The notes beneath the pieces are model-generated. The model searched no databases and had not been told where the DNA came from. It was given only the letters and a program-made list of their open reading frames with translations. Shown here in pieces: positions 11,564-30,684 of a stretch of 47,179 nt of DNA. The DNA lies in assembly GCA_022361275.1 (NCBI GenBank), contig JAKSBE010000015.1, positions 1 to 47,179 of the forward strand. Reading direction: 5' to 3'. Every line of letters starts with the position of its first letter. Positions within the stretch are counted from its first letter, which is position 1. The translations under genes and the position numbers were made by a program. This stretch comes from Kiloniellales bacterium (lineage in GTDB: Bacteria > Pseudomonadota > Alphaproteobacteria > Kiloniellales > JAKSBE01).

Positions 11564-12979
11564 TCACGCGACCGGATAGGGTGCGAAACGGCTGGCATTC
11601 TCGTCGATGGCCAGGTCCCGGCCGATCGACGGAAAGGCGCGCTGCGGGCAGGCAGGCCGGTCGCAAACCTTGCATCCGGCGCCGATGGGCGTGGCCGCCC
11701 GCGCATCGCCAAGATCAAGGCCCTTGGAATAGACCAGCCGCGGGGCATGGTGCAGGTCGCAGCCGAGCCCGATCGAGAAGGTCTTGCCCGGGGCTCCATA
11801 TTCGCCGTGCGCGCGCGAGACCGTGCGGGCGATCCAGAGATAGGTTCGCCCGTCGGGCATTTGCGCAAGCTGGGTCAGGATGCGCCCCGGAAGGGCGAAA
11901 GCCTCGTAGACGTTCCAGAGCGGACAGGTGCCGCCGACCCGCGAGAAGTGAAAGTCGGTGGCCGACTGCCGCTTGGAGATGTTGCCGGCGCGATCGACCC
12001 GGACGAACAGGAACGGCACGCCGTTCGCCCCCGGACGCTGCAAGGTGCTGAGCCGATGGCATATGGTCTCGAAGCCGACCCCGAACTGGCGGCCCAGCCG
12101 CTCGATATCGTAACCTGCGGTCTCGGCCGCCTTCAGGAATTTGGTATAGGGCAGAAGCAGCGCGCCGGCGAAGTAACTGGCCAGCCCGATGCGCACCAGC
12201 GCGCGCGCCTCGTCGCCGGAAAGCGCAGCCTCGTTGGTCAGCTTGTGCAAAAGATCGCCCATTTCCAGAAAGGCGAGCTGTGTCGCCATCTGGAAAGCCT
12301 GCTGGCCCACCCGCAGATGCGGCGAAAGATACAGAACCTTGTTCGTCGGATCGTAGCGGCGTTGCTCGCCTCCGGACTCCGGGACCGACGCCATCGCCAC
12401 CCGCACGCCATGGCGCCGGGCCATGCAGTCGGCAAGGCCGGCGTTGAGAGGGCCGACCGCAAGACCTTCCGCGTCATGAAGGCGCTCCGCCGCCTCATCG
12501 AGCTCGGCGATATGGTTGTTGCGGGCATAGAAGTAATCGCGCGCCTCCTCGTAGGGCATGGGCGACGGCGCGGCCGCCGGCCAGTCCTCGCCAAGGCGGG
12601 CGGCCATCGCCTCGGAGCGCTCGACGCTTTCGCGGTAGCGCCGGTGCAGGCTGAGCAAAGCCCTGCCGACCGCCGGCATGTTTGCGGCCAACTCGCGGAT
12701 CTCCGTCAGCGCAACGGTCTCGCCCGTCTGGGTTTCCGACAGCACCTCGCGCAGATCGGCGATCAGCCGCGCCTCCTCATCCTCCGAGAAGAGCTGTACG
12801 TCGACCCCAAAGACCGAATTGATTTTCAGCAGCACGGGAACCGTCAAAGGCCGCTGGTTCTTTTCCAACTGGCTGAGGTAACTGGTGGACAGACCCAGGG
12901 CCGAGGCGAGCGCGGCCTGCGTCAGGCCGCGTTCCTCACGCAGCCGGCGCAGCCGCACGCCCATGAACGTCTTCTTCAT
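11564..12979 (-). CDS. Short-chain fatty acyl-CoA regulator (ScfR family, XRE HTH; PccR/RamB-like)
   Basis: This 471-residue regulator begins with an XRE-type HTH (RLRRLREERGLTQAALASALGLSTSYLSQLEKNQRPLTVP, about residues 8-50 in two adjoining segments). An IrrE/ImmA-like middle follows, then the DUF2083-type C-terminal domain. The tail has the family's cysteine cluster CKVCDRPACPQRAFP. The family includes RamB and PccR, which respond to short-chain acyl-CoAs and control propionyl-CoA or acetate use. It is divergent from prpDCB, so control of the methylcitrate cycle by a propionate-derived acyl-CoA is the natural inference. The ATG at 12979 is used; ATG codons at 13000 and 12964 are alternatives. 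The long inverted repeat at 12994-13083 is a likely binding region. Confidence 0.88.
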   Translation of the reverse strand: MKKTFMGVRLRRLREERGLTQAALASALGLSTSYLSQLEKNQRPLTVPVLLKINSVFGVDVQLFSEDEEARLIADLREVLSETQTGETVALTEIRELAANMPAVGRALLSLHRRYRESVERSEAMAARLGEDWPAAAPSPMPYEEARDYFYARNNHIAELDEAAERLHDAEGLAVGPLNAGLADCMARRHGVRVAMASVPESGGEQRRYDPTNKVLYLSPHLRVGQQAFQMATQLAFLEMGDLLHKLTNEAALSGDEARALVRIGLASYFAGALLLPYTKFLKAAETAGYDIERLGRQFGVGFETICHRLSTLQRPGANGVPFLFVRVDRAGNISKRQSATDFHFSRVGGTCPLWNVYEAFALPGRILTQLAQMPDGRTYLWIARTVSRAHGEYGAPGKTFSIGLGCDLHHAPRLVYSKGLDLGDARAATPIGAGCKVCDRPACPQRAFPSIGRDLAIDENASRFAPYPVA

Positions 12980-12993
12980 CCCGGCCCTCGATA

Positions 12994-13083
12994 TCCGCAA
13001 TCTTCACAAACCAAGGCCTCAAGCTTCGCAAATATACGCATTTCCAGGCCTGTACCTTGGTTGAAGTTTGTGGATATTGCGGA
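12994..13083. promoter_or_regulatory. Long imperfect inverted repeat in the prp divergent promoter
   Basis: An 18-base arm, TCCGCAATCTTCACAAAC (12994-13011), recurs inverted at 13066-13083 with two mismatches. The inner CCAAGG (13011-13016) pairs with CCTTGG (13055-13060). The arms flank an AT-richer core with a TTCGCAAATATACGC stretch (13025-13039). Arms facing opposite genes in the only gap between regulator and prpD suggest binding sites for the acyl-CoA regulator and the two promoters. The repeat is seen; the regulator assignment is inferred. Confidence 0.6.
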
Positions 13084-13163
13084 TCTGTATAATCGAATGC
13101 AAGACGTCGCGGCGGCTCTCGGGCCCAAGCTGCCGCCCCACGCCAAAGAGGGAAAAGAAGTTC

Positions 13164-14678
13164 GTGAAGGTCCACCACGTCCGAACCTACAAATCCGCGG
13201 AACCGCTGCCGCGCGAGGCGCAGCTTGCCTGGAAGATCGCGTCGGTTGCCGCCGACCCCGTGGCGGTCGAAGACGACGTGATCGAGATGATCGGCAACCG
13301 CATCATCGACAATGCCGCGGTGGCCGCGGCATCGCTGAACCGCCGTCCGGTCGCGAACGCCCGGGCGCAGGCGGCGGCCCATCCATACACCCCCGGCGCG
13401 ACTCTCTTCGGATTGGATGGGCAATGGCGCGTTTCGCCGGAGTGGGCGGCCTGGGCCAACGGCGTCGCGGTGCGCGAGCTCGACTATCACGACACCTTCC
13501 TGGCCGCGGACTATTCGCATCCCGGCGACAACATCCCGGCCGTCCTGGCGGTGGCGCAGCATTGCGGGCGGAGCGGCGCCGATCTCGTCCGCGGGATCGC
13601 CGCCGCCTATGAGATTCAAGTCGATCTGGTGAAGGGCATTTGCCTGCACGAGCACAAGATCGACCATATCGCCCATCTCGGCCCGTCCGCGGCGGCCGGC
13701 ATCGGCGCCGCTCTCGGATTGCCGGTCGAGACCATCTACCAGGCGGTGCAGCAGGCGCTGCACGTGACGACGACCACCCGCCAGTCGCGCAAGGGCGAGA
13801 TTTCAAGCTGGAAGGCGTATGCGCCGGGATTCGCCGGCAAGATGGCCGTGGAAGCCGTCGACCGCGCGATGCGCAGCGAAGGCGCTCCGTCACCGGCCTA
13901 TGAGGGCGAAGACGGCTTCATCGCCTGGCTGCTGGGCGGCCCGGCCGCGGCCTATCAGGTGCCGCTGCCCGAAGCGGGCGAGCCGAAACGCGCCATCCTC
14001 GATACCTACACCAAGGAACACTCGGCGGAGTATCAAAGCCAGGCGCTGATCGATCTCGCCCGCCGCCTCGGTCCCCGGATCGGCGCACTCGACCGCGTGG
14101 AGGAGATCGTCATACGGACCAGCCACCATACCCACCATGTGATCGGGACCGGCGCCAGCGATCCCCAGAAAATGGACCCGAAAGCGAGCCGTGAGACGCT
14201 CGACCACTCGATCATGTACATCTTCGCCGTCGCCCTGCAGGACGGCGGCTGGCACCACGAGCGCTCCTACGCGCCCGAACGGGCGTCGCGGCCGGACACG
14301 GTGGCGCTGTGGCACAAGATCCGCACCGTCGAGGATCCGGCATGGACCGAGCGCTATCATGCCACCGACCCGGCGGTGAAGGCCTTCGGCGGCAAGGTCA
14401 CCGTCACGCTCGACGACGGCCGCACCATCGAAGACGAGATCGCCGTTGCCGACGCGCATCCGCTCGGCGCCACGCCGTGGGGACGCGCCGACTACGTCGA
14501 GAAGTTCCGCAGCCTCGCGGCCGGGATCGTCCCGCCAGCCGAACAGGCGCGTTTCCTGGCCGAGGTGGACCGTCTGCCGCAGCTCACCGCCGATGACGCG
14601 AGCGGGCTGACCTTTGCCGTCGACCCCGGCGGGCTCGCGACTCCACAGACCGGCGGCCTCTTCACAAGACAAGGGTGA
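13164..14678 (+). CDS. prpD: 2-methylcitrate dehydratase
   Basis: PrpD dehydrates 2-methylcitrate to 2-methyl-cis-aconitate in the methylcitrate cycle, which turns propionyl-CoA into pyruvate and succinate. The 504-residue product has the MmgE/PrpD fold, with early [12 protein letters not shown], the catalytic-region [22 protein letters not shown] (about 110-132, two adjoining segments) and a C-terminal lid domain. Length is normal for bacterial PrpD. The GTG at 13164 is chosen because GAGGGAAAAGAAG lies just before it and the family N-terminus begins there. It is the first gene of prpDCB, 33 bp before prpC. No separate acnD/prpF pair is present, so this PrpD would be the route used. Confidence 0.95.
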
Positions 14679-14711
14679 CGGGCCCCCTATCAGGGATCAT
14701 CGGAGGAGGTC

Positions 14712-15887
14712 ATGGCACAACAGACGGTTCCGGCCCCGAAGAAGTCGGTCGCGCTTTCCGGCGTGACCGCAGGCAACACGGCGCTCTGCACGGTCGGGCG
14801 CAGCGGCAACGATCTGCACTATCGCGGCTACGATATCCTCGACATCGCGGAGCACTGCTGCTTCGAGGAGATCGCCCATCTGCTGGTCCACGGCGATCTG
14901 CCCACGGAGGTTGAGCTTGCCGCCTACCGGGACAAGCTGAAGTCACTGCGCGGCCTGCCCGCGGCGGTGAAGCGAAGCCTGCAGGAGCTGCCCGCCGCGG
15001 CGCATCCGATGGACGTGCTGCGCTCCGGGGTTTCGGCACTGGGCTGCGTGCTGCCCGAGGCCGCAGACCAGACCCAGGCCGGCGCCCGCGATATCGCGGA
15101 CCGGTTGATGGCCTCGCTCGGCTCCATGCTGCTCTATTGGCATCATTACGCGCATCACGGCCGGACCGTGGACGTCGAAACCGGGGACGACGGCATCGCG
15201 GCGCATTTCCTGCGCCTGTTGCACGGGCGCGGGCCCGCGGACGCCCATGTCCGGGCGATGGACACCTCTTTGATCCTCTATGCCGAGCACGAGTTCAACG
15301 CCTCCACCTTTACGGCGCGCTCGATCGCCGGCACCGGCGCCGACATCTACTCGGCGGTCACCGGCGCCATCGGCGCCTTGCGCGGTCCCAAGCACGGCGG
15401 CGCCAACGAGGCCGCGCTCGAGATCCAGCAGCGCTACGCCGACCCGGAAGAGGCCGAAGCCGACATCCGCCGGCGGATCGCCGCAAAGGAGGTCGTCATC
15501 GGCTTCGGCCACCCGGTCTATACCACCGCCGATCCGCGCAACGACGTGATCAAGCGCGTGGCCCGCGGCCTGAGCGAAGACGCCAAGTCCATGCGCATGT
15601 TCGCCATCGCCGAGCGCATCGAAGAGGTGATGGCCGAGACCAAGAAGATGTTCGCCAACCTGGACTGGTTCAGCGCCGTCTCCTATCACCGGATGGGCGT
15701 GCCGACGGCCATGTTCACCCCGCTGTTCGTCATCGCGCGCACCTCGGGCTGGTGCGCGCACGTGATCGAGCAGCGGGTCGACAACAGGATCATTCGGCCG
15801 TCGGCCAACTATGTGGGACCGGAAAACCGCGTCTTCGTGCCGCTCGCGCAACGCGGTGCCGACAAACGGCCCTCTCACGCCGCCTGA
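14712..15887 (+). CDS. prpC: 2-methylcitrate synthase
   Basis: PrpC condenses propionyl-CoA with oxaloacetate to 2-methylcitrate. The 391-residue protein is of citrate-synthase type: [20 protein letters not shown] near residues 35-55, [14 protein letters not shown] with the catalytic His (about 225-238), [13 protein letters not shown] with the second His, and the C-terminal arginine/aspartate region. The short length and its place between prpD and prpB separate it from housekeeping citrate synthase. GGAGGAGGTC precedes the ATG. It is co-transcribed with prpD and prpB. Confidence 0.95.
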
Positions 15888-15898
15888 GGAGACCTGGC

Positions 15899-16816
15899 AT
15901 GCCCTATCTCGTCGCCGCCGACCTGCCCGCCGAGCCCGCCGGCGCGCGATGGCGGCGGTTGCTCGACCGCCCCGGCATCCTCCAGATCCCGGGAACGCAT
16001 AACGGCATGGCGGCCCTGCAAGCCAAGGCGGCGGGCTTCGACGCGCTCTACCTGTCCGGCGCGGCCATGACCGCCTCGATGGGACTGCCGGACCTGGGCG
16101 TCATCACGGTCGACGAGGTCTGCTTCTTCATCCGGCAGGTCGCGCGGGCAAGCGGTTTGCCGCTGCTGGTCGACGGCGACACGGGCTATGGCGAGGCGCT
16201 CAACGTCATGCACATGGTGCGCGCCTTCGAAGACGCCGGCGCCGCGGCGGTTCATGTCGAGGACCAGCTCCTGCCGAAGAAATGCGGCCATCTCAATGAC
16301 AAGAGGCTGGCGGACGCCCGCGACATGGCGGCCAAGGTCGCGGCCGCGGCAAGCGCCCGCCGCCATCTCTACGTGATTGCCCGAACGGATGCGGCCGCCA
16401 GCGAAGGACTGGACGGCGCGATCGCCCGGGCCAGGCTCTATCGCGAGGCCGGCGCCGACGCCATATTCCCCGAGGCGCTGACCACCGCCGAGATGTTCCG
16501 CGCCTTCGCCGAAGCGCTGCCGGACGTCCCCCTGCTCGCCAACATGACCGAGTTCGGCCGGACGCCGTTCTTCAGCGCCAGCGCGTTCGAGGCCATGGGC
16601 TACCGCATGGTCATCTGGCCCGTCTCGTCGCTGCGCGTCGCCAACAAGGCACAGCAGCGGCTTTTCGACAGCCTGCGCCGCGACGGCGGAACCCAATCCA
16701 TGTTGGACGAGATGCAGACGCGCGACGAACTCTACGACCTGATCGGTTTGTCGGACTACGAAGCGCTCGATGCATCGATCCTGCGCACCGTCCTGGAGGA
16801 TTTGCCGGGAGAGTGA
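15899..16816 (+). CDS. prpB: 2-methylisocitrate lyase
   Basis: PrpB splits 2-methylisocitrate into pyruvate and succinate, the last cycle step. The 305-residue protein has the isocitrate-lyase superfamily barrel, with DGDTGYGEALNV for Mg binding (about 97-108) and the catalytic KKCGHLNDK loop (about 130-138). NGMAALQAKAAGFDALYLSG is near the N-terminus. The ATG at 15899 lies 11 bp after the prpC stop. It ends the prp operon; immediately downstream begins a zone of mobile-element remnants. Confidence 0.95.
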   Translation: MPYLVAADLPAEPAGARWRRLLDRPGILQIPGTHNGMAALQAKAAGFDALYLSGAAMTASMGLPDLGVITVDEVCFFIRQVARASGLPLLVDGDTGYGEALNVMHMVRAFEDAGAAAVHVEDQLLPKKCGHLNDKRLADARDMAAKVAAAASARRHLYVIARTDAAASEGLDGAIARARLYREAGADAIFPEALTTAEMFRAFAEALPDVPLLANMTEFGRTPFFSASAFEAMGYRMVIWPVSSLRVANKAQQRLFDSLRRDGGTQSMLDEMQTRDELYDLIGLSDYEALDASILRTVLEDLPGE

Positions 16817-16958
16817 AAGCCGTTCCAGATGGTCTAGCCTAGCCCTATCCGGCGGCCTGTCTTTGCACGCTGACCACCGGATTCGCTTGGCTTTCACGAA
16901 GCGAAGCCACACCGTTCCTAACCGCGTGCGCGACGGGGCTGGATGTCTGGAAACACCC

Positions 16959-17208
16959 ATGCGGCTCCCGGACGACCGCAAGAATTGGAAGCAGGCCGTG
17001 GCCAAGATCAAGATCACCAAAACCGTCGTCGACAATGCCGAACCGCGCGACCGCGAGTACGAACTCCGTGACACCACCATCCCCGGCTTCCTTCTCAAGG
17101 TGATGCCGACCGGACGCAAGGTGTTCATGGTGGCCTACCGGACCAACGCCGGCGTCTGGAGGAAGCCAGCCATAGGACGCTTCGGGGAACTCACGGTCGA
17201 GCAAGCGC
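16959..17208 (+). pseudogene. Integrase arm-binding domain remnant (DUF4102, tyrosine recombinase N-terminus)
   Basis: About 80 residues match the N-terminal arm-DNA-binding domain of phage/island integrases: KIKITKTVVDNAEP, YELRDTTIPGFLLKVMPTGRKVF, VAYRTNAGVWRKPAIGRFGELTVEQAR. The homology then stops and the frame continues into unlikely sequence, so the core-binding and catalytic domains are absent. A full integrase of this type has about 400 residues. The break coincides with the start of a different remnant at 17209 in another frame. It is a dead scar of an integrated element. Confidence 0.75.
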
Positions 17209-17391
17209 GGTTTCTCGAAAGCCGAGATCGCGAAGATCGTCGAGACCGTCCTCGCCGAAGAAGGCCGGCCGCCCGAAAGCGTGCTCGACTTCGTGCAGGG
17301 CATCACCGCGGTCGCGCGGTCAAAGCCGCAACAGGACGCGCGGCTTGCCATGCAGACCCGCGCCAAGACGTTCCTGGAGCGCGCGGCCTGA
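17209..17391 (+). pseudogene. DUF932-type plasmid/phage protein, C-terminal remnant
   Basis: In the frame closing at TGA 17389-17391 the sequence reads as 60 residues, including GFSKAEIAKIVETVLAEEGR, a LDFVQGITAVAR segment and a QQDARLAMQTRAKTFLERAA end. This resembles the tail of DUF932 (phage/plasmid-like TIGR03299) proteins, which usually exceed 300 residues. It has no start of its own and is joined out of frame to the integrase remnant. The gap from 17392 to 17523 holds nothing else recognisable. The identification is from memory of the family and is moderately sure. Confidence 0.55.
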
Positions 17392-17523
17392 CGGCGATTA
17401 CATACTGGAATCGAAGAGAAGGCCTGTGTCGCCAGAACAAGCGGCACAGCTCCCTACCTGCTACTAAGAATCCACGACGGCGGCTCAGAGCAGAAACCTG
17501 CGCGACTGCTCCTGGCCCGCAAG

Positions 17524-18042
17524 TCAAGAGTCGGAAGTCTCAAGACACTTCACAAGGAAGAGCACCAAGTCGTCATCAAGCCTAATCTGAGTTCCGTGCT
17601 TCTGGTTCTGCCCTTGATATGCGACTCCGTGACCATCCGGCATGTACCCTAGTGAGACATACAGGATTTGCGCTGCGCCGTACTCTGGAGTCAGGCCAAA
17701 GCCAATCCCAATCCTATCGAAAGAAGCAGTACACGTGTGTTCCGCCTTACCAATCAGTGTCGTCGCTATCCCTTGCCGGCGGAACTTTGGGAGTACGTTT
17801 AAGTCTTTGATTTCTGGGATATTATTTATCCGGAAACGCACATAATCGGACTTAAGCTTAACAGTCAAATAGCCGGCAAATACTCCGCCGGCTTCTGCCA
17901 CGATCACGATGCGCTCACCCGAGGATTGTTCAGATAAGTAGCGCTCAAATATGCTTTCAGGTTTTCGCCATCCAATTTGCCCAAATTCGGACGAAATCGT
18001 CCGTGGATCCCCCGGTCTGAGTTCTCTGAGCTGCAAAGCCAT
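17524..18042 (-). CDS. GNAT-family N-acetyltransferase
   Basis: This 172-residue protein has the GNAT fold. Strand one is LQLRELRPGD, the acetyl-CoA loop is LNVLPKFRRQGIATTLIGKAEH (R/Q-x-x-G-x-A, about residues 90-111), and the C-terminal FGLTPEYGAAQILYVSLGYMPDG segment is typical. Such enzymes transfer acetyl from acetyl-CoA to an amine; the acceptor cannot be predicted. Base composition is visibly lower in GC than its neighbours, and it sits between mobile-element scars and a metE remnant, so it was probably acquired. The ATG at 18042 is preferred; a GTG at 18069 is possible, and neither has a strong ribosome site. Confidence 0.75.
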   Translation of the reverse strand: MALQLRELRPGDPRTISSEFGQIGWRKPESIFERYLSEQSSGERIVIVAEAGGVFAGYLTVKLKSDYVRFRINNIPEIKDLNVLPKFRRQGIATTLIGKAEHTCTASFDRIGIGFGLTPEYGAAQILYVSLGYMPDGHGVAYQGQNQKHGTQIRLDDDLVLFLVKCLETSDS

Positions 18043-18188
18043 ACCGCAAGTAAGCAACACATCGTGCACCGCGCAACCTAATTGGCAAAGATCTTAACCT
18101 AAGCCTGCTCTGTCCGGTGAGGCATCGTCCAAGACCGCCGTCCCCATCAGATATGCCGCGGCCCGCCATTCCTTAGAGGGAGAGGCTG

Positions 18189-19016
18189 GTGCATGGCGAG
18201 TTCGAGCGCAACGACATGGTGCAGTATTTCGGCGAGCGGCTCACCGGCTTCGCCTTCACCAAGCACGGCTGGGTGCAGAGCTACGGGTCGCGCTACGTGC
18301 GCCCGCCGATCATCTTCGGCGACGTGTCCCGGCCCGCGCCGATGACCGTCGAGTGGTCCGCCTACGCCCAATCGCTGACCGACAAGCCGATGAAAGGCAT
18401 GCTGACCGGACCCGTGACCATGCTCCAGTGGTCCTTCGTGCGCGACGACCAGCCGCGCGAGGACACCTGCCGTCAGATCGCCCTGGCGCTGCGCGATGAA
18501 GCGGCCGACCTGGAGCAGGCCGGCATCGGCATCATCCAGATCGACGAGCCCGCCCTGCGCGAAGGCCTGCCTCTCCGGCGCGGCGACTGGGCACGCTATC
18601 TGGACTGGGCGGTCACGTGCTTCCGGCTCGCCTCGTCAGGGGTGGACGACGCGACCCAGATCCACACCCATATGTGCTATTCGGAGTTCAACGACATCAT
18701 CGAAGCGATCGGCGCGCTGGACGCCGACGTCATTTCCATCGAGACGGCGCGCTCGAAAATGGAGCTGCTGGACGCCTTCACCGACTACCGCTACCCGAAC
18801 GAGATCGGTCCGGGCGTCTACGACGTCCACGCGCCACGCTGCCCGCCGGTCGACGAGATGGCGGCACTGCTCGCCAAAGCCGGCGAGCGCCTGGCGCCGG
18901 ACCAGGTCTGGGTCAATCCGGATTGCGGCCTCAAGACCCGCAAATGGGACGAGGTACGCCCCGCCCTCGTCAACATGGTCGAAGCGGCGCGCAAGCTGAG
19001 AGCGGGATCGGCCTGA
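18189..19016 (+). pseudogene. metE: Cobalamin-independent methionine synthase, C-terminal fragment
   Basis: The 275 residues match the C-terminal barrel of MetE from [18 protein letters not shown] onward. The zinc ligands are kept: His and Cys in HTHMCYSEF, Glu in SIETARS and Cys in NPDCGLKTR. The N-terminal barrel (about 400 residues) and the first strand of the catalytic barrel are missing, and an in-frame TAG stands at 18174-18176. A GTG at 18189 preceded by GAGGGAGAGG could still start translation. Core-only methionine synthases exist but keep the first strand, so decay is the more likely reading. The ligand residues and codon use look intact, which points to a recent deletion. It lies just upstream of a cobalamin riboswitch, the usual regulator of metE. 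Confidence 0.75.
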
Positions 19017-19182
19017 TACCGTGTAGGCCGTCCCCGAGAGCCCGGTCTTGACGGGACGGCCGAACCGTATCTCGACCGCCGGACATACGGACGCCCCGCC
19101 ACGGAGGCGCGGCCGCCTGTCGTGGAAAGCGGTTTTTGCGTCGCATTCGCTATGCCGTCCGCGACGGAGCGGTGATTTGATC

Positions 19183-19373
19183 ACCTTGCTTGTGGTGCCG
19201 CCGCATCGCTTTGGTGCGGTGGAGAATTGGGAAACCGGTGAGATGCCGGCGCTGCCCCCGCAACGGTATGGAGAGTTTGGCCGCGGCAAGAGGCCATTGG
19301 GAGATGACCCCGAGAAGGCGCCGCGGCTGGCAACAGCCACGCTCCGAGCCCGGAAACCAGCCCAGGCAATGAC
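19183..19373 (+). ncRNA. Cobalamin (B12) riboswitch
   Basis: The core elements are present in order: AATTGGGAAACCGGTGAGAT, then CCGGCGCTGCCCCCGCAAC, typical of the conserved three-way core. A variable peripheral arm and the B12-box region follow (GGCAACAGCCACGC, then GAGCCCGGAAACCAGCC). The boundaries are approximate. Adenosylcobalamin or related corrinoid binding usually lowers downstream expression. The downstream gene is a Rieske oxygenase at 19518, so that operon should be on when B12 is scarce. The truncated metE lies upstream, not downstream, of the switch. Confidence 0.92.
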
Positions 19374-19420
19374 GCTTTCGGATCGCGGGTGGCGATCAAG
19401 AGGCTGCACCACACGGTGCG

Positions 19421-19436
19421 GCGGACATCTGTCCGC
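19421..19436 (+). promoter_or_regulatory. Candidate expression-platform hairpin of the cobalamin riboswitch
   Basis: GCGGAC (19421-19426) pairs with GTCCGC (19431-19436) over a 4-base loop. A second small hairpin, GCACC/GGTGC, lies just before it (about 19406-19419). They sit between the aptamer and the ribosome site GGGAGAG of the Rieske gene. No T-run follows, so translational or Rho-dependent control is more likely than intrinsic termination. The exact switching partner was not worked out. Confidence 0.45.
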
Positions 19437-19517
19437 GTGCCTCCAGCCCTCCTGACGTCACCGGCGACCCTGCCACCGTTCTCCCGGCCGCAAGGCTGGA
19501 AAATGGGAGAGATCGCT

Positions 19518-20756
19518 ATGGACGCAAGTCTTCATGCCGAGCGGCTGCTGTCCACCCGCCGCTCGGGGTACTCGCTGCCGCAAGGCTTCTACAACGACCC
19601 GATGCTATTCGACGTCGATATGAAGATCCTCTTCCACCATGACTGGCTGTTCGCCGGCCATACCTGCGAGATTCCCGATACCGGCGACTTTCTGACCTTC
19701 CGAGCCGGCGCCGCCGAGGCGATCGTCGTTCGCGGCGCCGACGGAGACATCCGCGCCTTCCACAACGCCTGCAGGCACCGGGGATCGCGGATCTGCCAGG
19801 CCGACAAGGGGTCGGTGCCGCGCCTGGTCTGCCCCTACCACCAGTGGACCTACGATCTCGACGGCCGGCTGCTCTTCGCGCGGGACATGGGCCCCGGGTT
19901 CGATCCGGCAGGCCATGCCCTCAAGCCGGTGCACTGCGAAACGACCGCCGGCTACATCTTCGTCTGCTTCGCCGAGGCGGCGCCCGACTTCGGCCCCTTG
20001 CGGACCCGGATCGAGCCCTACCTGGCGCCGCACAGACTTGAGCAGGCCAAGGTTGCGCACCAGACCTCGATCGTCGAAAGGGGCAACTGGAAGCTCGTCT
20101 GGGAAAACAACCGCGAATGCTACCATTGCTCCGGGTCGCATCCCGAACTGTGCCGGACCTTCTCGGACGGACCTACGGTCACCGGCGTCGAACGCGCCGA
20201 CAGCGACGCAGGCTTGCGGGCGCACTGGGACCGCTGCAACGCCGCCGGGCTGCCCAGCGCTTTTTCCATATCCGACGACGGTCAGTACCGGGTCATGCGT
20301 GCGCCTCTGCTGGGCGACACCGAGAGCTTCACCCTTTCCGGACGTCCCGCCAGCGTCAAGCCGCTGGGCGGGGTTGCCGAGCCGCGCATCGGCACCCTGA
20401 TGCTGTTTCACTACCCCTCGACCTGGAATCACCTTCTGCGCGACCACGCGATCTCCTTTCAGGTGACGCCGCTCGGCCCGCAGGAGACCCGGCTGACGAC
20501 GAAGTGGCTGGTGCACGAGGATGCGCTCGAAGGCACCGATTACGACGTGCAGGCCTTGACCGAGGTTTGGAACGCGACCAACGACCAAGACCGCCGCCTG
20601 ATCGAGCAGAACCAGCTCGGCGTGAACTCGCCGGCCTATGAGCCCGGTCCTTATTCGCCGGATCACGAAAACGGCGTGGCCCAGTTCGTCGACTGGTACT
20701 GCGCCGCGCTCTCCGCGCGGCTCGGCGGAAGCAAGCGCCTGGTCGCCGCCGAATAA
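19518..20756 (+). CDS. Rieske non-heme iron oxygenase, catalytic subunit (GbcA-like)
   Basis: This 412-residue aromatic-ring-hydroxylating-type oxygenase alpha subunit has a Rieske [2Fe-2S] motif, CRH (Cys85, His87) and CPYH (Cys105, His108). The mononuclear iron site is NNRECYHCSGSH (His203, His208), with an Asp in TNDQD as third ligand. Proteins of this layout include glycine betaine demethylase GbcA and other N- or O-demethylases. GGGAGAG precedes the ATG, and the reductase gene starts 20 bp downstream. Its leader carries a cobalamin riboswitch, so it is expected to be induced when B12 is low. Betaine demethylation is plausible, but the sequence alone does not fix the substrate. Confidence 0.9.
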   Translation: MDASLHAERLLSTRRSGYSLPQGFYNDPMLFDVDMKILFHHDWLFAGHTCEIPDTGDFLTFRAGAAEAIVVRGADGDIRAFHNACRHRGSRICQADKGSVPRLVCPYHQWTYDLDGRLLFARDMGPGFDPAGHALKPVHCETTAGYIFVCFAEAAPDFGPLRTRIEPYLAPHRLEQAKVAHQTSIVERGNWKLVWENNRECYHCSGSHPELCRTFSDGPTVTGVERADSDAGLRAHWDRCNAAGLPSAFSISDDGQYRVMRAPLLGDTESFTLSGRPASVKPLGGVAEPRIGTLMLFHYPSTWNHLLRDHAISFQVTPLGPQETRLTTKWLVHEDALEGTDYDVQALTEVWNATNDQDRRLIEQNQLGVNSPAYEPGPYSPDHENGVAQFVDWYCAALSARLGGSKRLVAAE

Positions 20757-20776
20757 CCGCTGGCCGGCGGAGACGA

Positions 20777-21862
20777 ATGGTGAAACTCAGTACGTTCAAG
20801 CCGCTGGACGAACGCGCCTATTGGACGGACGCGCAGGAGCTGGTCTGTGTCATGGTGACGCCGGAAGCGCCGGACGTGACGTCCTTCTGCTTCAAGACCG
20901 CGGACGATAGCTGGTTCCGCTATCTTCCCGGCCAGTTCATCACCCTCGAGCTTCCGGTCGGCAGCCGGCGTCTGTTGCGGACCTACACGCTGTCCTCGTC
21001 CCCGTCCCGCCCGCTCTCGATCTCGGTCACCGTGAAGGCACAGCGGAACAGTGTCGGCTCGCGCTGGATGCTCGACAATCTGAAGGTCGGCGATCGGCTT
21101 CACGCCTATGGCCCGGGCGGCATCTTCAGTTTCATGACCTACCCGGCCGAAAAGTACCTGTTCGTCTCGGCCGGGTCGGGGGTCACCCCGATGATGTCGA
21201 TGACACGCTGGCTTTTCGACAACGGGGAGCACACGGACATCGCCCTGATCAACTGCGCGCGGCGTCCGTCGGAACTGGTGTTCGCCAACGAGCTGCGGCG
21301 CATGGCGCAGCGCGTGCCCGACATCAAGCTGTCGTTCGTGGTCGGGGAGGACGATCCCTATGCCGTCTGGGCAGGCTACCGCGGCCGCCTCAACCAGCTC
21401 ATGCTGGAGCTGATGGCGCCCGACTACATGGAGCGCGAGATCTTCTGCTGCGGGCCGGAGCCCTTCATGAAAACGCTGCGCGATGTCCTGAACGCCGCGG
21501 ACTTCGACATGCAGCATTATCATGAGGAGAGTTTCCACGCCCCGATCCGGTCCGCCGACGAGATACCGCAACACGACGATACGGTCCCGAAACGGCAGGC
21601 AGCGGCCACCGTGCACTTCGCCCTCTCCGCAGTCGAGGCAGATTGCCATGAAACCGATACGATCCTTGCGGTCGCCAAAGCCCATGGGCTGAACATTCCC
21701 TCGGCATGCCAGTTCGGTGTCTGCGGAACTTGCAAGATTCGCAAGCTGGAGGGCGAGGTACACATGGTGCACAATGGAGGTATCTCCGACCGTGATGTCG
21801 ATGAAGGCTACATCCTCGCCTGTTGCTCCAAGCCTCTCGGCCGCGTGAGAGTCGAGGTTTAG
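20777..21862 (+). CDS. Ferredoxin-NAD(P)H reductase partner of the Rieske oxygenase (GbcB-like)
   Basis: This 361-residue electron-transfer flavoprotein passes electrons from NAD(P)H to the oxygenase encoded upstream. The FAD-binding RTYTLSSSP lies near residues 73-81. The NAD domain begins around SAGSGVTPMMSM, and a CGPEPFM motif is near residue 230. A plant-type [2Fe-2S] ferredoxin domain closes the chain, with Cys311, Cys316, Cys319 and a CC pair at 349-350. The order is FAD, NAD, ferredoxin, as in GbcB and hybrid-cluster NADH oxidoreductases. It is co-transcribed with the oxygenase under the cobalamin riboswitch. Confidence 0.92.
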   Translation: MVKLSTFKPLDERAYWTDAQELVCVMVTPEAPDVTSFCFKTADDSWFRYLPGQFITLELPVGSRRLLRTYTLSSSPSRPLSISVTVKAQRNSVGSRWMLDNLKVGDRLHAYGPGGIFSFMTYPAEKYLFVSAGSGVTPMMSMTRWLFDNGEHTDIALINCARRPSELVFANELRRMAQRVPDIKLSFVVGEDDPYAVWAGYRGRLNQLMLELMAPDYMEREIFCCGPEPFMKTLRDVLNAADFDMQHYHEESFHAPIRSADEIPQHDDTVPKRQAAATVHFALSAVEADCHETDTILAVAKAHGLNIPSACQFGVCGTCKIRKLEGEVHMVHNGGISDRDVDEGYILACCSKPLGRVRVEV

Positions 21863-22171: not shown

Positions 22172-23335
22172 TCACGGCACGGTTTGTGCGAGCCCGGCCT
22201 CCTCGAGACGCCGGAGGAAGCTCGACTTCCTCGCGTGCCGCCCTTGGAGGGCGCCGATCCGCGCCGCCACCTCGGCCGTCCGGCCTTCGCGCGCGCCGAG
22301 ATCCCGAAGATCGCCCAGCAGTCGGACGGCCCGGTCATAGTCGCTCGGCAGCTTCGCCGCGACGAGGGCGTCGACCTCCCGCCAGGTCTCCGCCTCGCGT
22401 GCGGCCAGTTGGTCCAGATAGCGAGCGCGGCGCTCGGCCTCCTCCCGCTCCCGCCGGGCCCGCTCTCGGGCCTCCGCTTCGGCCGCGCGGCGCTGCCGCT
22501 CGGCGGCCCGGGCCTTGGCTGCGGCCAGGAGCGCCGCGACGCTGCGCGCGCCCGGCGCGGCGCCAGCCTCCGGGATCTGCCGTTCGCGGCCGTAGCGCTG
22601 CAGCAGTTCGGCCCGGAGGTGGAGGCCGTCGCCCGCGGCGAGCCGGACCAGATATCCGGTCTTGTCGGCCTCCGGCAGGGCCGCAAGCCAAGGCTCAAGG
22701 TCCTGGTCCTGGACGGAGTTCGCTTCGTCGCTCGCGTCGAGGCTGCGCTCGGCGGCCACGGCAATCAGGTCGCCGTCGATTCGCAGGAAATCGGCAAACG
22801 CCTTGAGCGGCGCCGTCAGCTTGCCCAGTCCCGGAGGCACCGGCGGTTCAGTCGCGTCGTCGCCGAACTCGCCGCGTTCCGCGCACAGAAGCCAGGCAAG
22901 GTACAGGGCCCGGTGGTCGCCGCCAGCGATGTCGGCGCGCAGCGGGATCAAGGAGGACAGCCAGCCAGATCCGTCGTCCCAGTCATCACCCGGCTCCTCC
23001 TCGGAGGTAAATCCCAGGATTACGGCATCGCCCCTGACCTCCGCGAAAGCCGCATCGCCGCCGCAGTAGGGTGCGACGGTGTCGAGGCCCAGGACCCGGC
23101 GGGGAAAGCGGAGCATGAACTCCTGCGTGCCCCAGTTCGCGAGATAGAGGAAGGCGTCGAAGTATCTCTCCATCCAGTCCAGAGGGGCCGCTTTCAGATC
23201 GCCCCAGTCGTAATGGTTCACGAAGCCGGTCGCCGTGATGTACGCGCGGCTCGAGACGGCCCGCAGTTCGGCCATCTCCCCTGCGTCGAGCGGCCGGTCG
23301 ATGGCGAGAAACTCGTAGTACTGGTATTCGCTCAA
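22172..23335 (-). CDS. Conserved-looking hypothetical protein with C-terminal coiled coil
   Basis: This 387-residue protein is not recognised. The N-terminal two thirds look folded, with many aromatic residues (YQYYEFLAIDRPL at the start, NHYDWGDLKAAPLDWMERYFDAF about 40-62). From about residue 265 to 340 it becomes a charged Ala/Arg/Glu-rich helix, very likely a coiled coil, followed by a short helical end. There is no signal peptide or membrane segment. It starts 18 bp after the stop of the small gene upstream (23354-23764), so the two probably form an operon and may act together. The start ATG is the first in frame. Confidence 0.7.
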   Translation of the reverse strand: MSEYQYYEFLAIDRPLDAGEMAELRAVSSRAYITATGFVNHYDWGDLKAAPLDWMERYFDAFLYLANWGTQEFMLRFPRRVLGLDTVAPYCGGDAAFAEVRGDAVILGFTSEEEPGDDWDDGSGWLSSLIPLRADIAGGDHRALYLAWLLCAERGEFGDDATEPPVPPGLGKLTAPLKAFADFLRIDGDLIAVAAERSLDASDEANSVQDQDLEPWLAALPEADKTGYLVRLAAGDGLHLRAELLQRYGRERQIPEAGAAPGARSVAALLAAAKARAAERQRRAAEAEARERARREREEAERRARYLDQLAAREAETWREVDALVAAKLPSDYDRAVRLLGDLRDLGAREGRTAEVAARIGALQGRHARKSSFLRRLEEAGLAQTVP

Positions 23336-24798: not shown

Positions 24799-25122
24799 TC
24801 AGGCCAGCCTGATCTGGTCCAGCACCTCGCGGGCGGCGGCTTCGCTCTCCTGGACCATCGTCTCCCACCAGGACGGCTGGATTATCTCGGGATCGTAATG
24901 GATCGTGAGGGTAAAGGTGAGAGGACTGACAGCGACCCGCTGTACGCCTTCGATCGCATCCAGCAAACTAGACCCCGCTTGGCCCTGCATCTGGCGCAAG
25001 ACGCCGACGGCGCCGATCCGATAACCGAGCCGGATCCGGCCTTGCTCATGGCGCAGGATTCTCAGGTACCGGCGCAGTTTCATCAGAAGGTCCTTGTCCA
25101 CGGCGCGCATGCTCTTCTCCAT
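24799..25122 (-). CDS. Small HMA-fold (heavy-metal-associated-like) protein at the end of the gvp cluster
   Basis: This 107-residue protein resembles HMA_2-type domains: EQGRIRLGYR matches the GRIR opening, LLDAIEGVQRVAVSPLTFTL matches the GV-x-V turn and following strand, and IHYDPEII the YDP end. The metal-binding CxxC of true HMA domains is absent, so metal transport is not implied. It follows gvpK by 131 bp on the same strand, with a hairpin between, so it may be a late member of the vesicle operon or separately expressed. Its role is unknown. Confidence 0.65.
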   Translation of the reverse strand: MEKSMRAVDKDLLMKLRRYLRILRHEQGRIRLGYRIGAVGVLRQMQGQAGSSLLDAIEGVQRVAVSPLTFTLTIHYDPEIIQPSWWETMVQESEAAAREVLDQIRLA

Positions 25123-25177
25123 AGTGACGAATTCTCCGATACAAAGTCAGAAATCCCGGACTCAACCACGCCCCGCC

Positions 25178-25203
25178 GCCCGGCCATTCAGGCCGAACCG
25201 GGC
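25178..25203 (-). terminator. Stem-loop between gvpK and the HMA-like gene
   Basis: GCCCGG (25178-25183) and CCGGGC (25198-25203) pair around a loop that itself contains GGCC repeats. It lies in the 131-bp gap after gvpK. With no T-run, it could reduce rather than stop transcription into the last gene. Confidence 0.35.
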
Positions 25204-25253
25204 AGGTCTCCGGCGGCGGCGGTCTGCGGTGCCGGATCGCGGTCTTTGACCGA

Positions 25254-25652
25254 TCACGCCTCGGGCCTCCCGGGCGCAGGTCGGTCGGACGCACGGATAT
25301 CCTCCAGCGTGTCCAGCACCACATGAAGGTCGGCATCGGTCAGACCGAAAGCGGCCTTGAGTTCCTGCATACGCCGGTCGAGCCGCAAGAGCGTCTCGCC
25401 GAGCCGTTCGATCGCCGCGTCGTCCAGGTCTCCGGCCTCGACGCGCCGTATCGCCTGTCGTTCCAGCAGTTGCCGGACGAGCTCGACGACGCCGAGAACG
25501 AGCCTGGCGAGACTCCGCTCGGCGGTGCGGGGCTCCAGCTCGACTCGCGCCGGCAGCTCCAGAGGCCGGACAAGGCCATCGTCGAGTCCGCCCAGGTCGC
25601 TCTCGTCGATCGGTGCCGACAGAACCTTGTCGGCCAGCCGCCACCCGGTCAT
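25254..25652 (-). CDS. gvpK: Gas vesicle protein GvpK
   Basis: This 132-residue protein matches GvpK in its core RTAERSLARLVLGVVELVRQLLERQAIRRVEAG (about residues 42-75, two adjoining segments) and the amphipathic ERLGETLLRLDRRMQELKAAFGL helix. GvpK is an accessory protein needed for vesicle assembly in many bacteria. Its ATG overlaps the stop of the upstream gvpF/L gene as ATGA, showing translational coupling. The extra Pro/Asp-rich C-terminus looks unstructured. Confidence 0.9.
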   Translation of the reverse strand: MTGWRLADKVLSAPIDESDLGGLDDGLVRPLELPARVELEPRTAERSLARLVLGVVELVRQLLERQAIRRVEAGDLDDAAIERLGETLLRLDRRMQELKAAFGLTDADLHVVLDTLEDIRASDRPAPGRPEA

Positions 25653-26371
25653 CGCACCACGAGGTCCTGACTTGGGGGAAGCACGCCGTCCTCGACGAAG
25701 GAGTAGGGCGGCCAGGGGCCCGAGGCGAAGAGCATCGGCATCCGCAGGTCCCTGCGGGCCGCCCCCACCTCGCGCCGGAAGCGCGACACGGCACCCGCGG
25801 GGACCAGATAGGTAAATCGGAGCGGACCGCCGGACCGTCCGCCCGCAAGCCGACGCCCGCAGCGGGACAATTGCCGTAAGCGGGCATCCAGAGCCGCAAC
25901 CCGGGCCGCGAGGTCTCTCGCACCGCGGCTCAGGGCGGCGTCTTCCCGGCACAGCCGCGCCAGGTAGTCCCGCCCGCTGCCGGCAGTCGGCACCGCGTCG
26001 TCGCGATCCCGGCGGGTCGCGCGGCATCGTCCCTCGCCGGCCACGAGGCCGAGTTCCACGCATCCTGCGACGCGCCGCAGGTTGCCGAGGATAGCCGGCA
26101 GGTTGGACCCTATCGCGACCGTCACAGCTTCCAGGTCGGCAACAAGGGTCCCGAAACGGAACGGCAGCACCGCACGCGTCGCCATCAGGGCCTCCACCAC
26201 GGCCTCGTGCCGGCACAGGGCGGCGAGACGATCCTCGGGCAGACGCGTGGCTCGACCGAGGACCAGCACGATACCGCCGAGAGGAAGGGCTTCGGGAGGC
26301 GCGCCGCCGACGCCCCCGACTTGCGGCAGGGCCCGGGCGCTCGTCTCACCGATCGCGTAGAGGTAGGGCAT
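25649..26371 (-). CDS. Gas vesicle protein, GvpF/GvpL family (third copy)
   Basis: This 240-residue protein has the GvpF/L layout: the opening strand PYLYAIGE, the AVLPFRFGTLV core where members bind GvpA during assembly, and the family ending RFTYLVPAG...GPWPPYSFVE. GvpF and GvpL are minor vesicle components thought to nucleate the shell. It overlaps the upstream gvpA/J paralog by 26 bp and gvpK by 4 bp. It is the most divergent of the three F/L copies in this cluster, and whether it is F or L cannot be told from sequence alone. Confidence 0.88.
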   Translation of the reverse strand: MPYLYAIGETSARALPQVGGVGGAPPEALPLGGIVLVLGRATRLPEDRLAALCRHEAVVEALMATRAVLPFRFGTLVADLEAVTVAIGSNLPAILGNLRRVAGCVELGLVAGEGRCRATRRDRDDAVPTAGSGRDYLARLCREDAALSRGARDLAARVAALDARLRQLSRCGRRLAGGRSGGPLRFTYLVPAGAVSRFRREVGAARRDLRMPMLFASGPWPPYSFVEDGVLPPSQDLVVR

Positions 26372-26588
26372 CGCGATCTCCTGCCGGCCATCCGGCCTGC
26401 AGCCGCTCGGCGGTGTCCACCGAGGCCAGCAGCGCCTTGAGGCCCACGTAGAGCAAGTCGACGTCAGCGACCGAAATGGTGGCGTCGCCGCGGACGACCA
26501 CGCCTTTGGTCAGAGCCCGGTCGAGCAGCTCGGCCAGCGCCAGGCGCTGGGCGGGTCCGCCGGCCGCACCGTCGATGCCGTCCGTCAT
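26346..26588 (-). CDS. GvpA/GvpJ-family minor structural protein (second paralog)
   Basis: This 80-residue protein of the GvpA/J/M/S family has the core LAELLDRALTKGVVVRGDATISVADVDLLYVGLKALLASVDTAERL (about residues 18-62, several adjoining motifs), matching the alpha-beta-beta-alpha fold of GvpA. The changes V-R-G-D-A-T-I-S-V-A-D-V-D instead of V-D-A-W-x-R-V-S-L-V-G-I-E fit GvpJ-type minor proteins that form vesicle tips. It overlaps neighbours on both sides: 4 bp with the upstream gvpF/L gene and 26 bp with the downstream one. Confidence 0.88.
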   Translation of the reverse strand: MTDGIDGAAGGPAQRLALAELLDRALTKGVVVRGDATISVADVDLLYVGLKALLASVDTAERLQAGWPAGDRDALPLRDR

Positions 26589-27493
26589 GGCCGCGCGCGC
26601 TCCCGGTCATCGCCCTTGCCGTCGTCGCCGACCTGCATCCGGGCAAAGCTGTAGGGCGGAAGCGGCCCGACGACCTCGAAGCGCAGGCCCGCGGCCCGGT
26701 GTTGCGCGGCAAGACCGTCAATCACCGCCCGGAAGCGGTCTTCGGCCTCCTCGGGGACCAGATAGGCCGCGTTCAGAAGCATGTCCTGCCGACGCCCGTG
26801 GTGCGTCCGGGGCTGGACCGGCTGCCGCCCGCCGGCGCGGGCCGCGTCGATGAGCCCGTTGTGAATCGCGGCCGCGCGCGCGGCCGCGGCGCCGACGGCC
26901 GCCTGCCACGTCATGTCGTCCAGCTTGCGCTTCAGAAAGAAGGCGGTCCCGGGCGCCGCCGCCGCCGCCCTTCGGGCCAGCCGCACGAGCTGGGGCGTCG
27001 TGGCCTTGACGGCGCGGCAGAGCGCCGCGTAGTCGACGAAGAGCTTGACTCCCCATTCCCTGGCCCGGCCTACCGCCGCGAGGGCCGCGAGCAAATCGTC
27101 ACGGCAGCGCTCCAGCGCGCCGGCCAGGGCCTGGCGGTCAGTGAACAAGGTACAGAACTGCAGCGGCAGCAGAGCCTCCCCCGGCACCGTCGTCAGGACA
27201 CGATGGTGATCGAGCACGCGCGCCGCGACCCAGGCATCGTCCCGCAGGCGCTCCTTGATGGCCTCCCCGGAAAAGACCGCCTTGGGCACTTCGCTCACCA
27301 GGGCGGCCAAGCCGTGGTGGGCAACGGCCTGGACCGGACATCCGGGCAGGATCCCCGCGATCGCAGGAAGGCCGTCCGGCTTGCCTGCAGTCGACCGCCG
27401 GACGCCGTAGGCGTAGAGCAGCGTCTCGCCCGCGCTTTCGCCTCGCGGCCCAGACGGGGGCCCAGCGAGGGACTCGGCGGAAGGATGGGTCAT
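26585..27493 (-). CDS. Gas vesicle protein, GvpF/GvpL family (second copy)
   Basis: This 302-residue GvpF/L protein starts with an unstructured stretch, then TLLYAYGVRR. It contains ALLPLQFCTLFTD in the conserved core and ends with LLNAAYLVPEE...GPLPPYSFARM. It is about 50 residues longer than many relatives through the N-terminal leader and an Ala-rich helical insert. It overlaps the CDC48-type ATPase gene by 4 bp and the gvpA/J gene by 4 bp, so its product is probably made in step with both. Confidence 0.88.
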   Translation of the reverse strand: MTHPSAESLAGPPSGPRGESAGETLLYAYGVRRSTAGKPDGLPAIAGILPGCPVQAVAHHGLAALVSEVPKAVFSGEAIKERLRDDAWVAARVLDHHRVLTTVPGEALLPLQFCTLFTDRQALAGALERCRDDLLAALAAVGRAREWGVKLFVDYAALCRAVKATTPQLVRLARRAAAAAPGTAFFLKRKLDDMTWQAAVGAAAARAAAIHNGLIDAARAGGRQPVQPRTHHGRRQDMLLNAAYLVPEEAEDRFRAVIDGLAAQHRAAGLRFEVVGPLPPYSFARMQVGDDGKGDDRERARP

Positions 27494-29637
27494 GATACGG
27501 CCTCCCTATGGGTGACGCCGACCGCGCCGTCGAAATCGGCGCCGGTCACCAGAGCCGGGCCGGCGGCGTCGGGCTCGAGGCGCCGGCGGACCGCCAGCAT
27601 GGCGGCGTTGCGGCAGAGCGCGGCCAGCGCCGCACCGGACCACTCAGCGGTCTTGGCCGCGACGGCCGGGAGCGAGACGCTGTCGGCCAGGGGCATGGAC
27701 CTGGTGTGGATGCGCAGGATCGCCTCGCGCTGCGCCCTGTCCGGCAGCGGCAGCTCGATCAGGCAGTCGAAGCGACCGGGCCGGATCAGGGCCGGGTCCA
27801 GCCGGTCGACTCGATTGGTCGCCGCGACGACGGTGATGTCCTGAAGCTGCTCCATGCCGTCGAGGGCGACCAGGAGCTGCGCCACCATGCGCTCGGAGAC
27901 CGGATCCTCGCCGGAGCCGCGGCGCGGCGCCAGGGCGTCGATCTCGTCGATGAAGACCACGCAGGGCCTGGTCTGTTTCGCCTTCCGGAAGAGCTCGCGC
28001 AGCGCCCGTTCCGACTCCCCCACCCACATGCTGACGAATTGCGGGCCCTGGACGGCGATGAAGTTGGCGTCGCACTCGCCGGCCAGGGCCCGCGCCAGAA
28101 GCGTCTTGCCGCGCCCCGGTCCGCCGTGCAGCAGGATGCCGCGCGGCGGCCGCACGCCCATCCGGTCGAACAGCGGCCTGTGGGTCAGCGGCAGCACGGC
28201 GGCCTCGTGCAGCGCACGCTTCACCTCGTCGAGACCGCCGACGTCACGCCAGCCCGTTTCGGAGACCTCGACCGCGATCTCCCGCAGCGCGGAGGGGCCG
28301 ACCTCGTTCAGGGCGTCCTCGAAATCGGCCCATTCGACCCGGAGATCGCCGAGCTTGTCGACCGGCACGAGGCCCTCGTCGAGATCGATGTCGGGCATCA
28401 GTCGCCTGACCGCCGACATGGCCGCCTCCCGGGCCAGGGCCGCCAGGTCCGCGCCGACGAAGCCGTGCGTCAGGCCGGCCAGGCGGCCGAGCGTGACCCC
28501 TTTGCCCAAGGGCATGCCGCGGGTGTGAATCTCGAGGATCTCCTGGCGCCCCTCGCGGTCCGGGACGCCGATCTCGGTCTCCCGGTCGAAGCGGCCGGGG
28601 CGGCGCAGGGCGGGATCGAGGCTGTTCGGAATGTTGGTCGCCGCGGCCACGATGACCTGGCCCCGGGTGTTCAAGCCGTCCATCAGCGCCAGAAGCTGAG
28701 CCACGACCCGCCGTTCCAACTGCCGGTCGCTGCTCATCTCGGCGCGGCTGGGGGCGATGGCGTCGATCTCGTCGATGAAGACGAAGGCCGGCGCGTTCTG
28801 CTTCGCCTCGTCGAAGGCCTTGCGCAGATGCGCCTCGCTGGCGCCGTAGGCCTTGTCGATGATCTCCGGCCCGTTGAGATGGATGAAATGCACGCCGGCT
28901 TCGTGGGCGACGGCGCGGGCGATGAGCGTCTTCCCGGTCCCCGGCGGCCCGTAGAGAAGCACGCCCTTGGGCGGATCGATGCCGAGATGCTCGAACACCT
29001 CGGGATGCTTCAGGGGCAGCTCGATGATCTCACGGACCCGCCGGACTTCCTTCTGCAGGCCGCCGATGTCCTCGTAGGTCACCGCGCTGCCGGCCATGAC
29101 CCGGCCCTCGCAGCGGATCTGCGTCGTCTTGTCGAAGCTCACCTGGCCCGGCGGCTCGGTCTGCTGCACCACGAAGGTATGGGGCTGAGTCCCGAAGGGC
29201 GTGACCCGCACGCGGTTTCCCTGACGCACCGGGAGCCCGTCCAGCAGCTTGCTCAGATAGCGGGGCGGCAGGCTTCGTCCGGAAGACTCCACGGCCGCGA
29301 GGACGACGGAGCGGGCCGGGCGCGTGATCACGCGCCGGACCGTGACGTGCTGGTCCAGCCCGGTGCCGGCGTTGGCCCTGAGAATCCCGTCGATCTGGAT
29401 CAGCCGCTGCCCCCTCTGCGCCGCGTGTGTCGGAAGCACACGGCAGAGCGCGCTGCGCTTGCCGGCGACCTCGACCACATCGCCGATCTCGAGGCCGAGC
29501 GCGCGCATGTCGCGCGGGTCGAGGCGGGCGACCCCCCTGCCCGTGTCCCTGGTCATGGCCTCCGCCACCCTCAGGGCGTGGTGCCGCGGCGCCGCGGCGA
29601 GGGCCGCGCCCGACCTCGTGTCGGCGGCGCTGTTCAT
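27490..29637 (-). CDS. CDC48/p97-type double AAA+ ATPase inside the gas vesicle operon
   Basis: This 715-residue protein has an N-terminal double-psi barrel substrate domain (about 20-180) and two AAA+ modules. D1 has Walker A GPPGTGKT (230-237), Walker B FVFIDEIDA and RRPGRFDRE. D2 has an unusual Walker A, GGPGRGKT (505-512), where GPPGTGKT is usual, with Walker B VVFIDEIDA and IRPGRFD kept. Such ATPases unfold or extract protein substrates. Here it is embedded between a gvpA/J paralog and a gvpF/L gene with 4-bp overlaps on both sides, so a job in vesicle protein remodelling or turnover is likely. It lacks the C-terminal tail of eukaryotic p97. Confidence 0.93.
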   Translation of the reverse strand: MNSAADTRSGAALAAAPRHHALRVAEAMTRDTGRGVARLDPRDMRALGLEIGDVVEVAGKRSALCRVLPTHAAQRGQRLIQIDGILRANAGTGLDQHVTVRRVITRPARSVVLAAVESSGRSLPPRYLSKLLDGLPVRQGNRVRVTPFGTQPHTFVVQQTEPPGQVSFDKTTQIRCEGRVMAGSAVTYEDIGGLQKEVRRVREIIELPLKHPEVFEHLGIDPPKGVLLYGPPGTGKTLIARAVAHEAGVHFIHLNGPEIIDKAYGASEAHLRKAFDEAKQNAPAFVFIDEIDAIAPSRAEMSSDRQLERRVVAQLLALMDGLNTRGQVIVAAATNIPNSLDPALRRPGRFDRETEIGVPDREGRQEILEIHTRGMPLGKGVTLGRLAGLTHGFVGADLAALAREAAMSAVRRLMPDIDLDEGLVPVDKLGDLRVEWADFEDALNEVGPSALREIAVEVSETGWRDVGGLDEVKRALHEAAVLPLTHRPLFDRMGVRPPRGILLHGGPGRGKTLLARALAGECDANFIAVQGPQFVSMWVGESERALRELFRKAKQTRPCVVFIDEIDALAPRRGSGEDPVSERMVAQLLVALDGMEQLQDITVVAATNRVDRLDPALIRPGRFDCLIELPLPDRAQREAILRIHTRSMPLADSVSLPAVAAKTAEWSGAALAALCRNAAMLAVRRRLEPDAAGPALVTGADFDGAVGVTHREAVS

Positions 29638-30388: not shown

Positions 30389-30394
30389 TCCTGG

Positions 30395-30652
30395 CTACTC
30401 CTTCTCTTCACTGCCGCGGAGATCGCGGATCGCCTTGAGACGCTCGAGCAGCACGGTCTCGCCCTCGTCCAGTTCCGCCTCGGTGATCTGGCCGAGGTCG
30501 TAGCGGAGCTGCAGCTGCTCCAGTTCCCGCTGGATCTTCCTCGGGTCGAAGACCTCCGCTTCGACCTTCTCCGCGAGCTTGCCGGCGATCCAGGCGAAGG
30601 CCTTGACCGGGCCGGCCACCGGGGCGGTCAGGAGGGCACTCAGAAGACCCAT
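30395..30652 (-). CDS. gvpG: Gas vesicle protein GvpG
   Basis: This 85-residue helical protein has the typical GvpG opening GLLSALLTAPVAGPVKAFAWIAGKL and the charged helix VFDPRKIQRELEQLQLRYDLGQITEAEL (two adjoining segments). GvpG is an assembly factor often encoded next to gvpF/L, as here. It lies 32 bp after a gvpF/L gene and 6 bp before gvpO. Confidence 0.9.
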   Translation of the reverse strand: MGLLSALLTAPVAGPVKAFAWIAGKLAEKVEAEVFDPRKIQRELEQLQLRYDLGQITEAELDEGETVLLERLKAIRDLRGSEEKE

Positions 30653-30684
30653 GGGTTCGACCGCGCGAGGTCCCCTTCGAGGGA

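Follow-up and report, generated by a model that had tools for sequence, protein, structure and literature searches.

The genes nrdAB and metE encode classic B12-independent isozymes. In genomes that have both isozymes for a step, repression of the B12-independent one by cobalamin is an established riboswitch logic (PMC2211319). For the demethylation of glycine betaine, MtgB represents the B12-dependent step that matches the betaine monooxygenase; GbcAB-type enzymes release the methyl group as formaldehyde, and bacteria with GbcAB but without MtgBCDE are described in work on the B12-dependent route (PMC12478193). In Sinorhizobium meliloti, an Rfam cobalamin riboswitch was listed upstream of SMc00982 in 2007 (PMC2245857, PMC2573895), a gene that codes for a likely dioxygenase (PMC2848018). 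The passages on SMc00982 in these three papers assign it neither a function nor a B12-dependent partner. No description of a cobalamin riboswitch with a GbcA, Rieske or ring-hydroxylating dioxygenase gene, or with betaine demethylation or its B12-dependent counterpart, was found in the literature searched, which consisted of main texts and covered a minority of subscription journals.

This work describes such an arrangement in a stretch of 47,179 nt of a Kiloniellales bacterium (contig JAKSBE010000015.1), hereafter the window, and its recurrence in other genomes. We judge it to be a real and widely conserved case of a known kind, in which a cobalamin riboswitch controls an isozyme that would work without B12; that the GbcAB-like case was not found described in the literature searched is no proof of novelty.

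Riboswitch and leader of the oxygenase gene

The Rfam scan of the window detected one cobalamin riboswitch, on the plus strand at 19176-19378. With 101.7 bits (E 2e-24) and a complete match to the model (1-189), it exceeds the gathering score of 31.5 over the full aptamer and thus belongs to RF00174. This confirms the earlier note on this DNA, which had placed a B12 riboswitch ahead of a Rieske oxygenase gene. The closeness of the two elements stands as well, with the gap of 145 bp given there corrected to 139 nt between the end of the Rfam match and the ATG at 19518.

The aptamer is followed by a hairpin, GATCGC-GGGTG-GCGATC (19381-19397, plus strand). In 26 aligned leaders 95.5% of its cells are paired, four of the six pairs have changed on both sides, and the pairing is lost when the partner is slid along. 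The covariation of this expression-platform hairpin likewise argues for membership of RF00174. It lies 18-28 nt past the B12 box in all leaders listed. By analogy with class-I riboswitches, from which we take the kissing-loop reading, a G-rich-loop hairpin at this place would be P13, and its loop would contact L5. Complementarity between this loop and the C-rich L5 (19254-19261, GCCCCCGC) is approximate; L5 and L13 are nearly invariant across the leaders, and covariation is thus uninformative on their contact.

Closer to the gene, a putative hairpin that would sequester the ribosome site is predicted at 19480-19511 (plus strand), where TCTCCC (19480-19485) pairs with the Shine-Dalgarno-like GGGAG (19505-19509) in a leader fold with a z-score of -2.6. 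Shine-Dalgarno-like sites are also paired in many of the other leaders, though not in all. From this predicted fold we infer that control may be translational, via a closed ribosome site. A promoter between riboswitch and gene that bypasses the switch had been named earlier as an observation that would speak against control by the switch; no sigma-70-like promoter was found in this interval, which is weak evidence in a GC-rich genome.

Oxygenase and reductase

Domain and family scans, together with motifs, identify the gene behind the leader (19518-20756, plus strand, 412 aa) as a GbcA/Stc2-like Rieske non-heme iron oxygenase with the domains Rieske (PF00355) and Ring_hydroxyl_A (PF00848). After 20 nt follows a GbcB-like flavin/2Fe-2S reductase (20777-21862, plus strand, 361 aa) with the domains FAD_binding_6, NAD_binding_1 and Fer2, in agreement with the ferredoxin reductase that had been proposed in the oxygenase operon. 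The pair has the GbcA/GbcB-type layout of a Rieske oxygenase with an adjacent flavin/2Fe-2S reductase, and a reductase homolog lies inside the fetched flank at 74 of the 84 loci at which the riboswitch was detected (switched loci, see below).

The nearest families are the glycine betaine monooxygenase GbcA for the oxygenase (517 bits, below the equivalog cut-off of 670) and GbcB for the reductase (381.5 bits, below the cut-off of 500). Both proteins thus fall outside these NCBIfam equivalogs, as do Stc2 and the other homologs scanned. The nearest solved structures are 3n0q, presumably the Ruegeria TM1040 protein, and the Stc2 demethylase entries 3vca and 4qup. Similarity to Stc2, which acts on stachydrine, is about equal to that to GbcA, and the Rieske and facial-triad motifs are common to the oxygenase and Stc2 by eye.

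Conservation of the leader across homologs

Homologous loci were collected from named genomes (80 homologs), plasmid records and two drawn samples, 162 loci in total. The 80 homologs of named genomes were scanned for two conserved riboswitch motifs in the 700 nt upstream. The outcome was bimodal: 51 have a close cobalamin riboswitch match and the rest have none within this distance. Over the full set, 84 of the 162 loci are led by a riboswitch, called at most loci by the two-motif pattern and confirmed by Rfam in the subset tested. The distance from riboswitch to start codon is about 110-235 nt in the loci measured. Switched homologs occur in Rhizobium, Mesorhizobium, Labrys, Sinorhizobium, Ruegeria TM1040, Phaeobacter and Pacificispira, among others. 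Because it recurs in about half of the homologous loci, the association between switch and oxygenase is not a matter of chance, and the evidence for a regulatory association is strong.

At one locus (L061), a riboswitch-led transporter gene precedes the gbcA homolog. This apparent exception was counted as switched, a decision made after its PF06253 result (see below) was known. Riboswitch, transporter gene (Ni/Co-permease-like by eye) and gbcA homolog form one apparent operon there (L061:4575-7215).

Co-occurrence with MttB/MtgB-family methyltransferases

The B12-dependent quaternary-amine methyltransferases of the MttB/MtgB family are represented by PF06253. This family is present in 79 of 79 genomes with a switched oxygenase and in 18 of 64 with an unswitched homolog. 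Because this set contains many closely related genomes, less biased samples were used as well. In the Hyphomicrobiales sample, with the oxygenase in 45 of 397 genomes, PF06253 was found in all switched genomes (25/25), in 8 of 20 unswitched genomes and in 9 of 20 tested genomes that lack the oxygenase. The Alphaproteobacteria sample (385 genomes) gave 7/7 switched versus 6/17 unswitched genomes. A dependent model of evolution was favored over an independent one on a tree of 155 rows (LR 29.6, p = 6e-6), which is a gene tree rather than a species tree and contains one duplicate row (L011 and L137 are one locus). The independent-pairs test gave two to six concordant and no discordant pairs, which is not significant in most pairings, as few pairs are informative.

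The relation runs one way, from switch to PF06253, as 18 genomes combine PF06253 with an unswitched homolog. Lost B12 regulation was considered as the cause of the unswitched pattern and rejected: other cobalamin riboswitches are present in 20 of 20 genomes tested, 17 of which are unswitched, and the pattern therefore does not reflect loss of the regulatory system. Genomes hold several PF06253 paralogs. The window's genome has five matches, so that candidate B12-dependent counterparts are available for a B12-independent isozyme.

Neighborhoods in relatives and in the window's genome

In Labrys (L011), two Mesorhizobium (L021, L075) and a further member of the rhizobiales (L007), the gbcA riboswitch is immediately preceded by nrdAB, and metE, or the part of it within the fetched stretch, is found nearby. 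Separate Rfam riboswitches precede nrdAB, gbcA and metE in L021 and L075, and nrdAB and gbcA in L011. Three cobalamin riboswitches are thereby found per 10 kb (L021:1073-11440, L075:1118-11073). At three more loci (L078, L142, L149) the neighbor is nrdB. Beside another switched gbcA homolog, a second cobalamin riboswitch (L105:3241-3351) lies ahead of a ribonucleotide-reductase-like stretch with 38% identity to NrdA.

The Paracoccus versutus pTAV3 homolog is 58% identical and has no switch. Its cluster contains a large FAD oxidoreductase, purU, folD, a formaldehyde dehydrogenase (fdhA) and a BCCT transporter, a gene content that fits glycine betaine as substrate, suggestive only as it is. The strongest MtgB of the window's genome is divergent from a gene with DAO, FAO_M and GCV_T domains, of the dimethylglycine/sarcosine-dehydrogenase type. 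The other three riboswitches of this genome lie ahead of an ABC transporter region, of HupE/UreJ with CobU, and of a TonB receptor gene.

In the window, the metE reported upstream of the switch is correctly placed, but it is a C-terminal fragment: a family match at 18189-19016 (plus strand) spans positions 474-747 of the 750 of MetE, short of the full length and two domains of a functional enzyme. This 5'-truncated gene, probably a remnant, is the sole strong MetE match in the window's genome, where no full-length metE was found, which suggests that the B12-independent methionine synthase was lost in this lineage. As a working neighbor of the oxygenase, metE was therefore rejected. In place of its missing 5' part lie a GNAT gene and an integrase arm-domain fragment (16932-18069, flanked by prpB and the metE fragment); metE may have been disrupted here by a mobile insertion.

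The methylcitrate cycle is a B12-independent propionate route. Its genes prpD, prpC and prpB (13170-16816, plus strand; family scans) lie near the switched gene as context, with a divergent ScfR-type regulator (11564-16816 for the whole group); the Rfam scan of the window found no riboswitch of their own. Downstream of the reductase, a 387-aa frame on the minus strand (22172-23335) has no Pfam match and adjoins a DUF3024 gene, and positions 24800-33760 form a gas vesicle gene region that encodes a GvpL/F protein as well as a CDC48-like AAA ATPase.

Proposed function and alternatives

We propose that the riboswitch governs one member of a pair of isozymes. Using O2 and NAD(P)H, the GbcAB-type oxygenase and reductase would demethylate a quaternary amine; glycine betaine is the most likely substrate, and the products would be dimethylglycine and formaldehyde. 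MtgB-family enzymes of the same genome would carry out the same demethylation by means of a corrinoid cofactor. With ample B12, the riboswitch would bind it and the P13/L5 kissing loop would form, the ribosome site would be closed and the oxygenase would not be made; under B12 shortage, the oxygenase would take over. GbcAB as an O2-dependent, B12-independent stand-in for MtgB that is off under plentiful B12 is a prediction from sequence that we hold with considerable confidence. The earlier idea that an oxygen-dependent enzyme stands in for a B12-dependent one gains support from the confinement of the switch to PF06253 genomes among those tested and from the clusters with riboswitch-led nrdAB and metE in some genomes.

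The substrate assignment is tentative, with glycine betaine as the most likely candidate for this GbcAB-like pair. The same isozyme logic might apply with a different quaternary amine as substrate, for instance stachydrine (proline betaine) or carnitine, and the matching MttB paralog as partner, which we regard as possible though clearly the less probable version. Stc2 is a close solved relative, S. meliloti Stc2 shares its group in the tree with the switched genes of TM1040, Phaeobacter and Roseibium, and the B12-dependent partner might be another of the several PF06253 paralogs, a family that covers several substrates. The window protein itself falls outside the Stc2 group, together with the Pacificispira, Hwanghaeella and G436 homologs, and one homolog from the other large clade is part of a betaine-type cluster.

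It is unlikely that the oxygenase instead aids B12 synthesis, by supplying glycine for the tetrapyrrole or one-carbon units, and is derepressed with the B12 genes. Industrial B12 fermentation with S. meliloti makes use of betaine (PMC8123684), other riboswitches of the genome control B12 supply genes, and the L061 gene follows a riboswitch-led transporter gene. Such a role does not predict the strict link to PF06253, cobalamin riboswitches persist elsewhere in genomes whose homolog is unswitched, and the informative neighbors encode B12-independent isozymes and are not cob genes. The route suggested in the earlier note, in which betaine demethylation supplies methionine methyl groups when MetH is without B12, is very improbable despite the metE remnant upstream and the presence of an intact metE close by in a few relatives, as the known reaction yields formaldehyde and no methyl donor for homocysteine (PMC12478193), the adjacent metE is truncated, adjacency to metE is rare and metE itself already does that job. 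Since the methyl group leaves as formaldehyde, MtgB rather than MetH is the B12-dependent enzyme to be expected as counterpart.

If the proposed MtgB stand-in is correct, the few isozyme pairs known to be controlled by cobalamin riboswitches gain a further one, B12 supply is tied to the breakdown of a major osmolyte, and a function is suggested for an S. meliloti target known merely as a likely dioxygenase. We lean slightly towards a wider picture, in which many alphaproteobacteria have an RNA-level B12-shortage regulon that replaces B12-dependent enzymes by B12-free ones in three pathways together, namely by nrdAB (DNA precursors), metE (methionine) and GbcAB (osmolyte demethylation), in some genomes as one island with a riboswitch per unit.

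Comparison with described systems

The S. meliloti SMc00982 locus resembles the one described here in that, according to the passages cited above, a cobalamin riboswitch precedes a likely dioxygenase gene. SMc00982 and the switched S. meliloti gene in our set (L099) are very probably orthologs. The GbcAB systems of Pseudomonas and Chromohalobacter share the two-gene architecture and give the best family match, whereas the window pair scores below the equivalog cut-offs, has a cobalamin riboswitch leader and lacks an adjacent betaine catabolic cluster in the window. The many genomes here that hold a GbcA-like oxygenase together with MtgB-family enzymes bear on the description of bacteria with GbcAB but without MtgBCDE (PMC12478193). 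The stachydrine demethylase Stc2/Stc4 of S. meliloti pSymA includes a close homolog with a solved structure, Stc2, but stc2 has no riboswitch in the record checked and lies elsewhere in the tree. With the cobalamin riboswitches of metE and nrdAB, the present one shares the RNA family, the logic of two isozymes in one genome (PMC2211319) and sometimes the locus; it differs in that the controlled enzyme is an O2-dependent oxygenase of the quaternary-amine demethylase type, with MtgB as its proposed partner.
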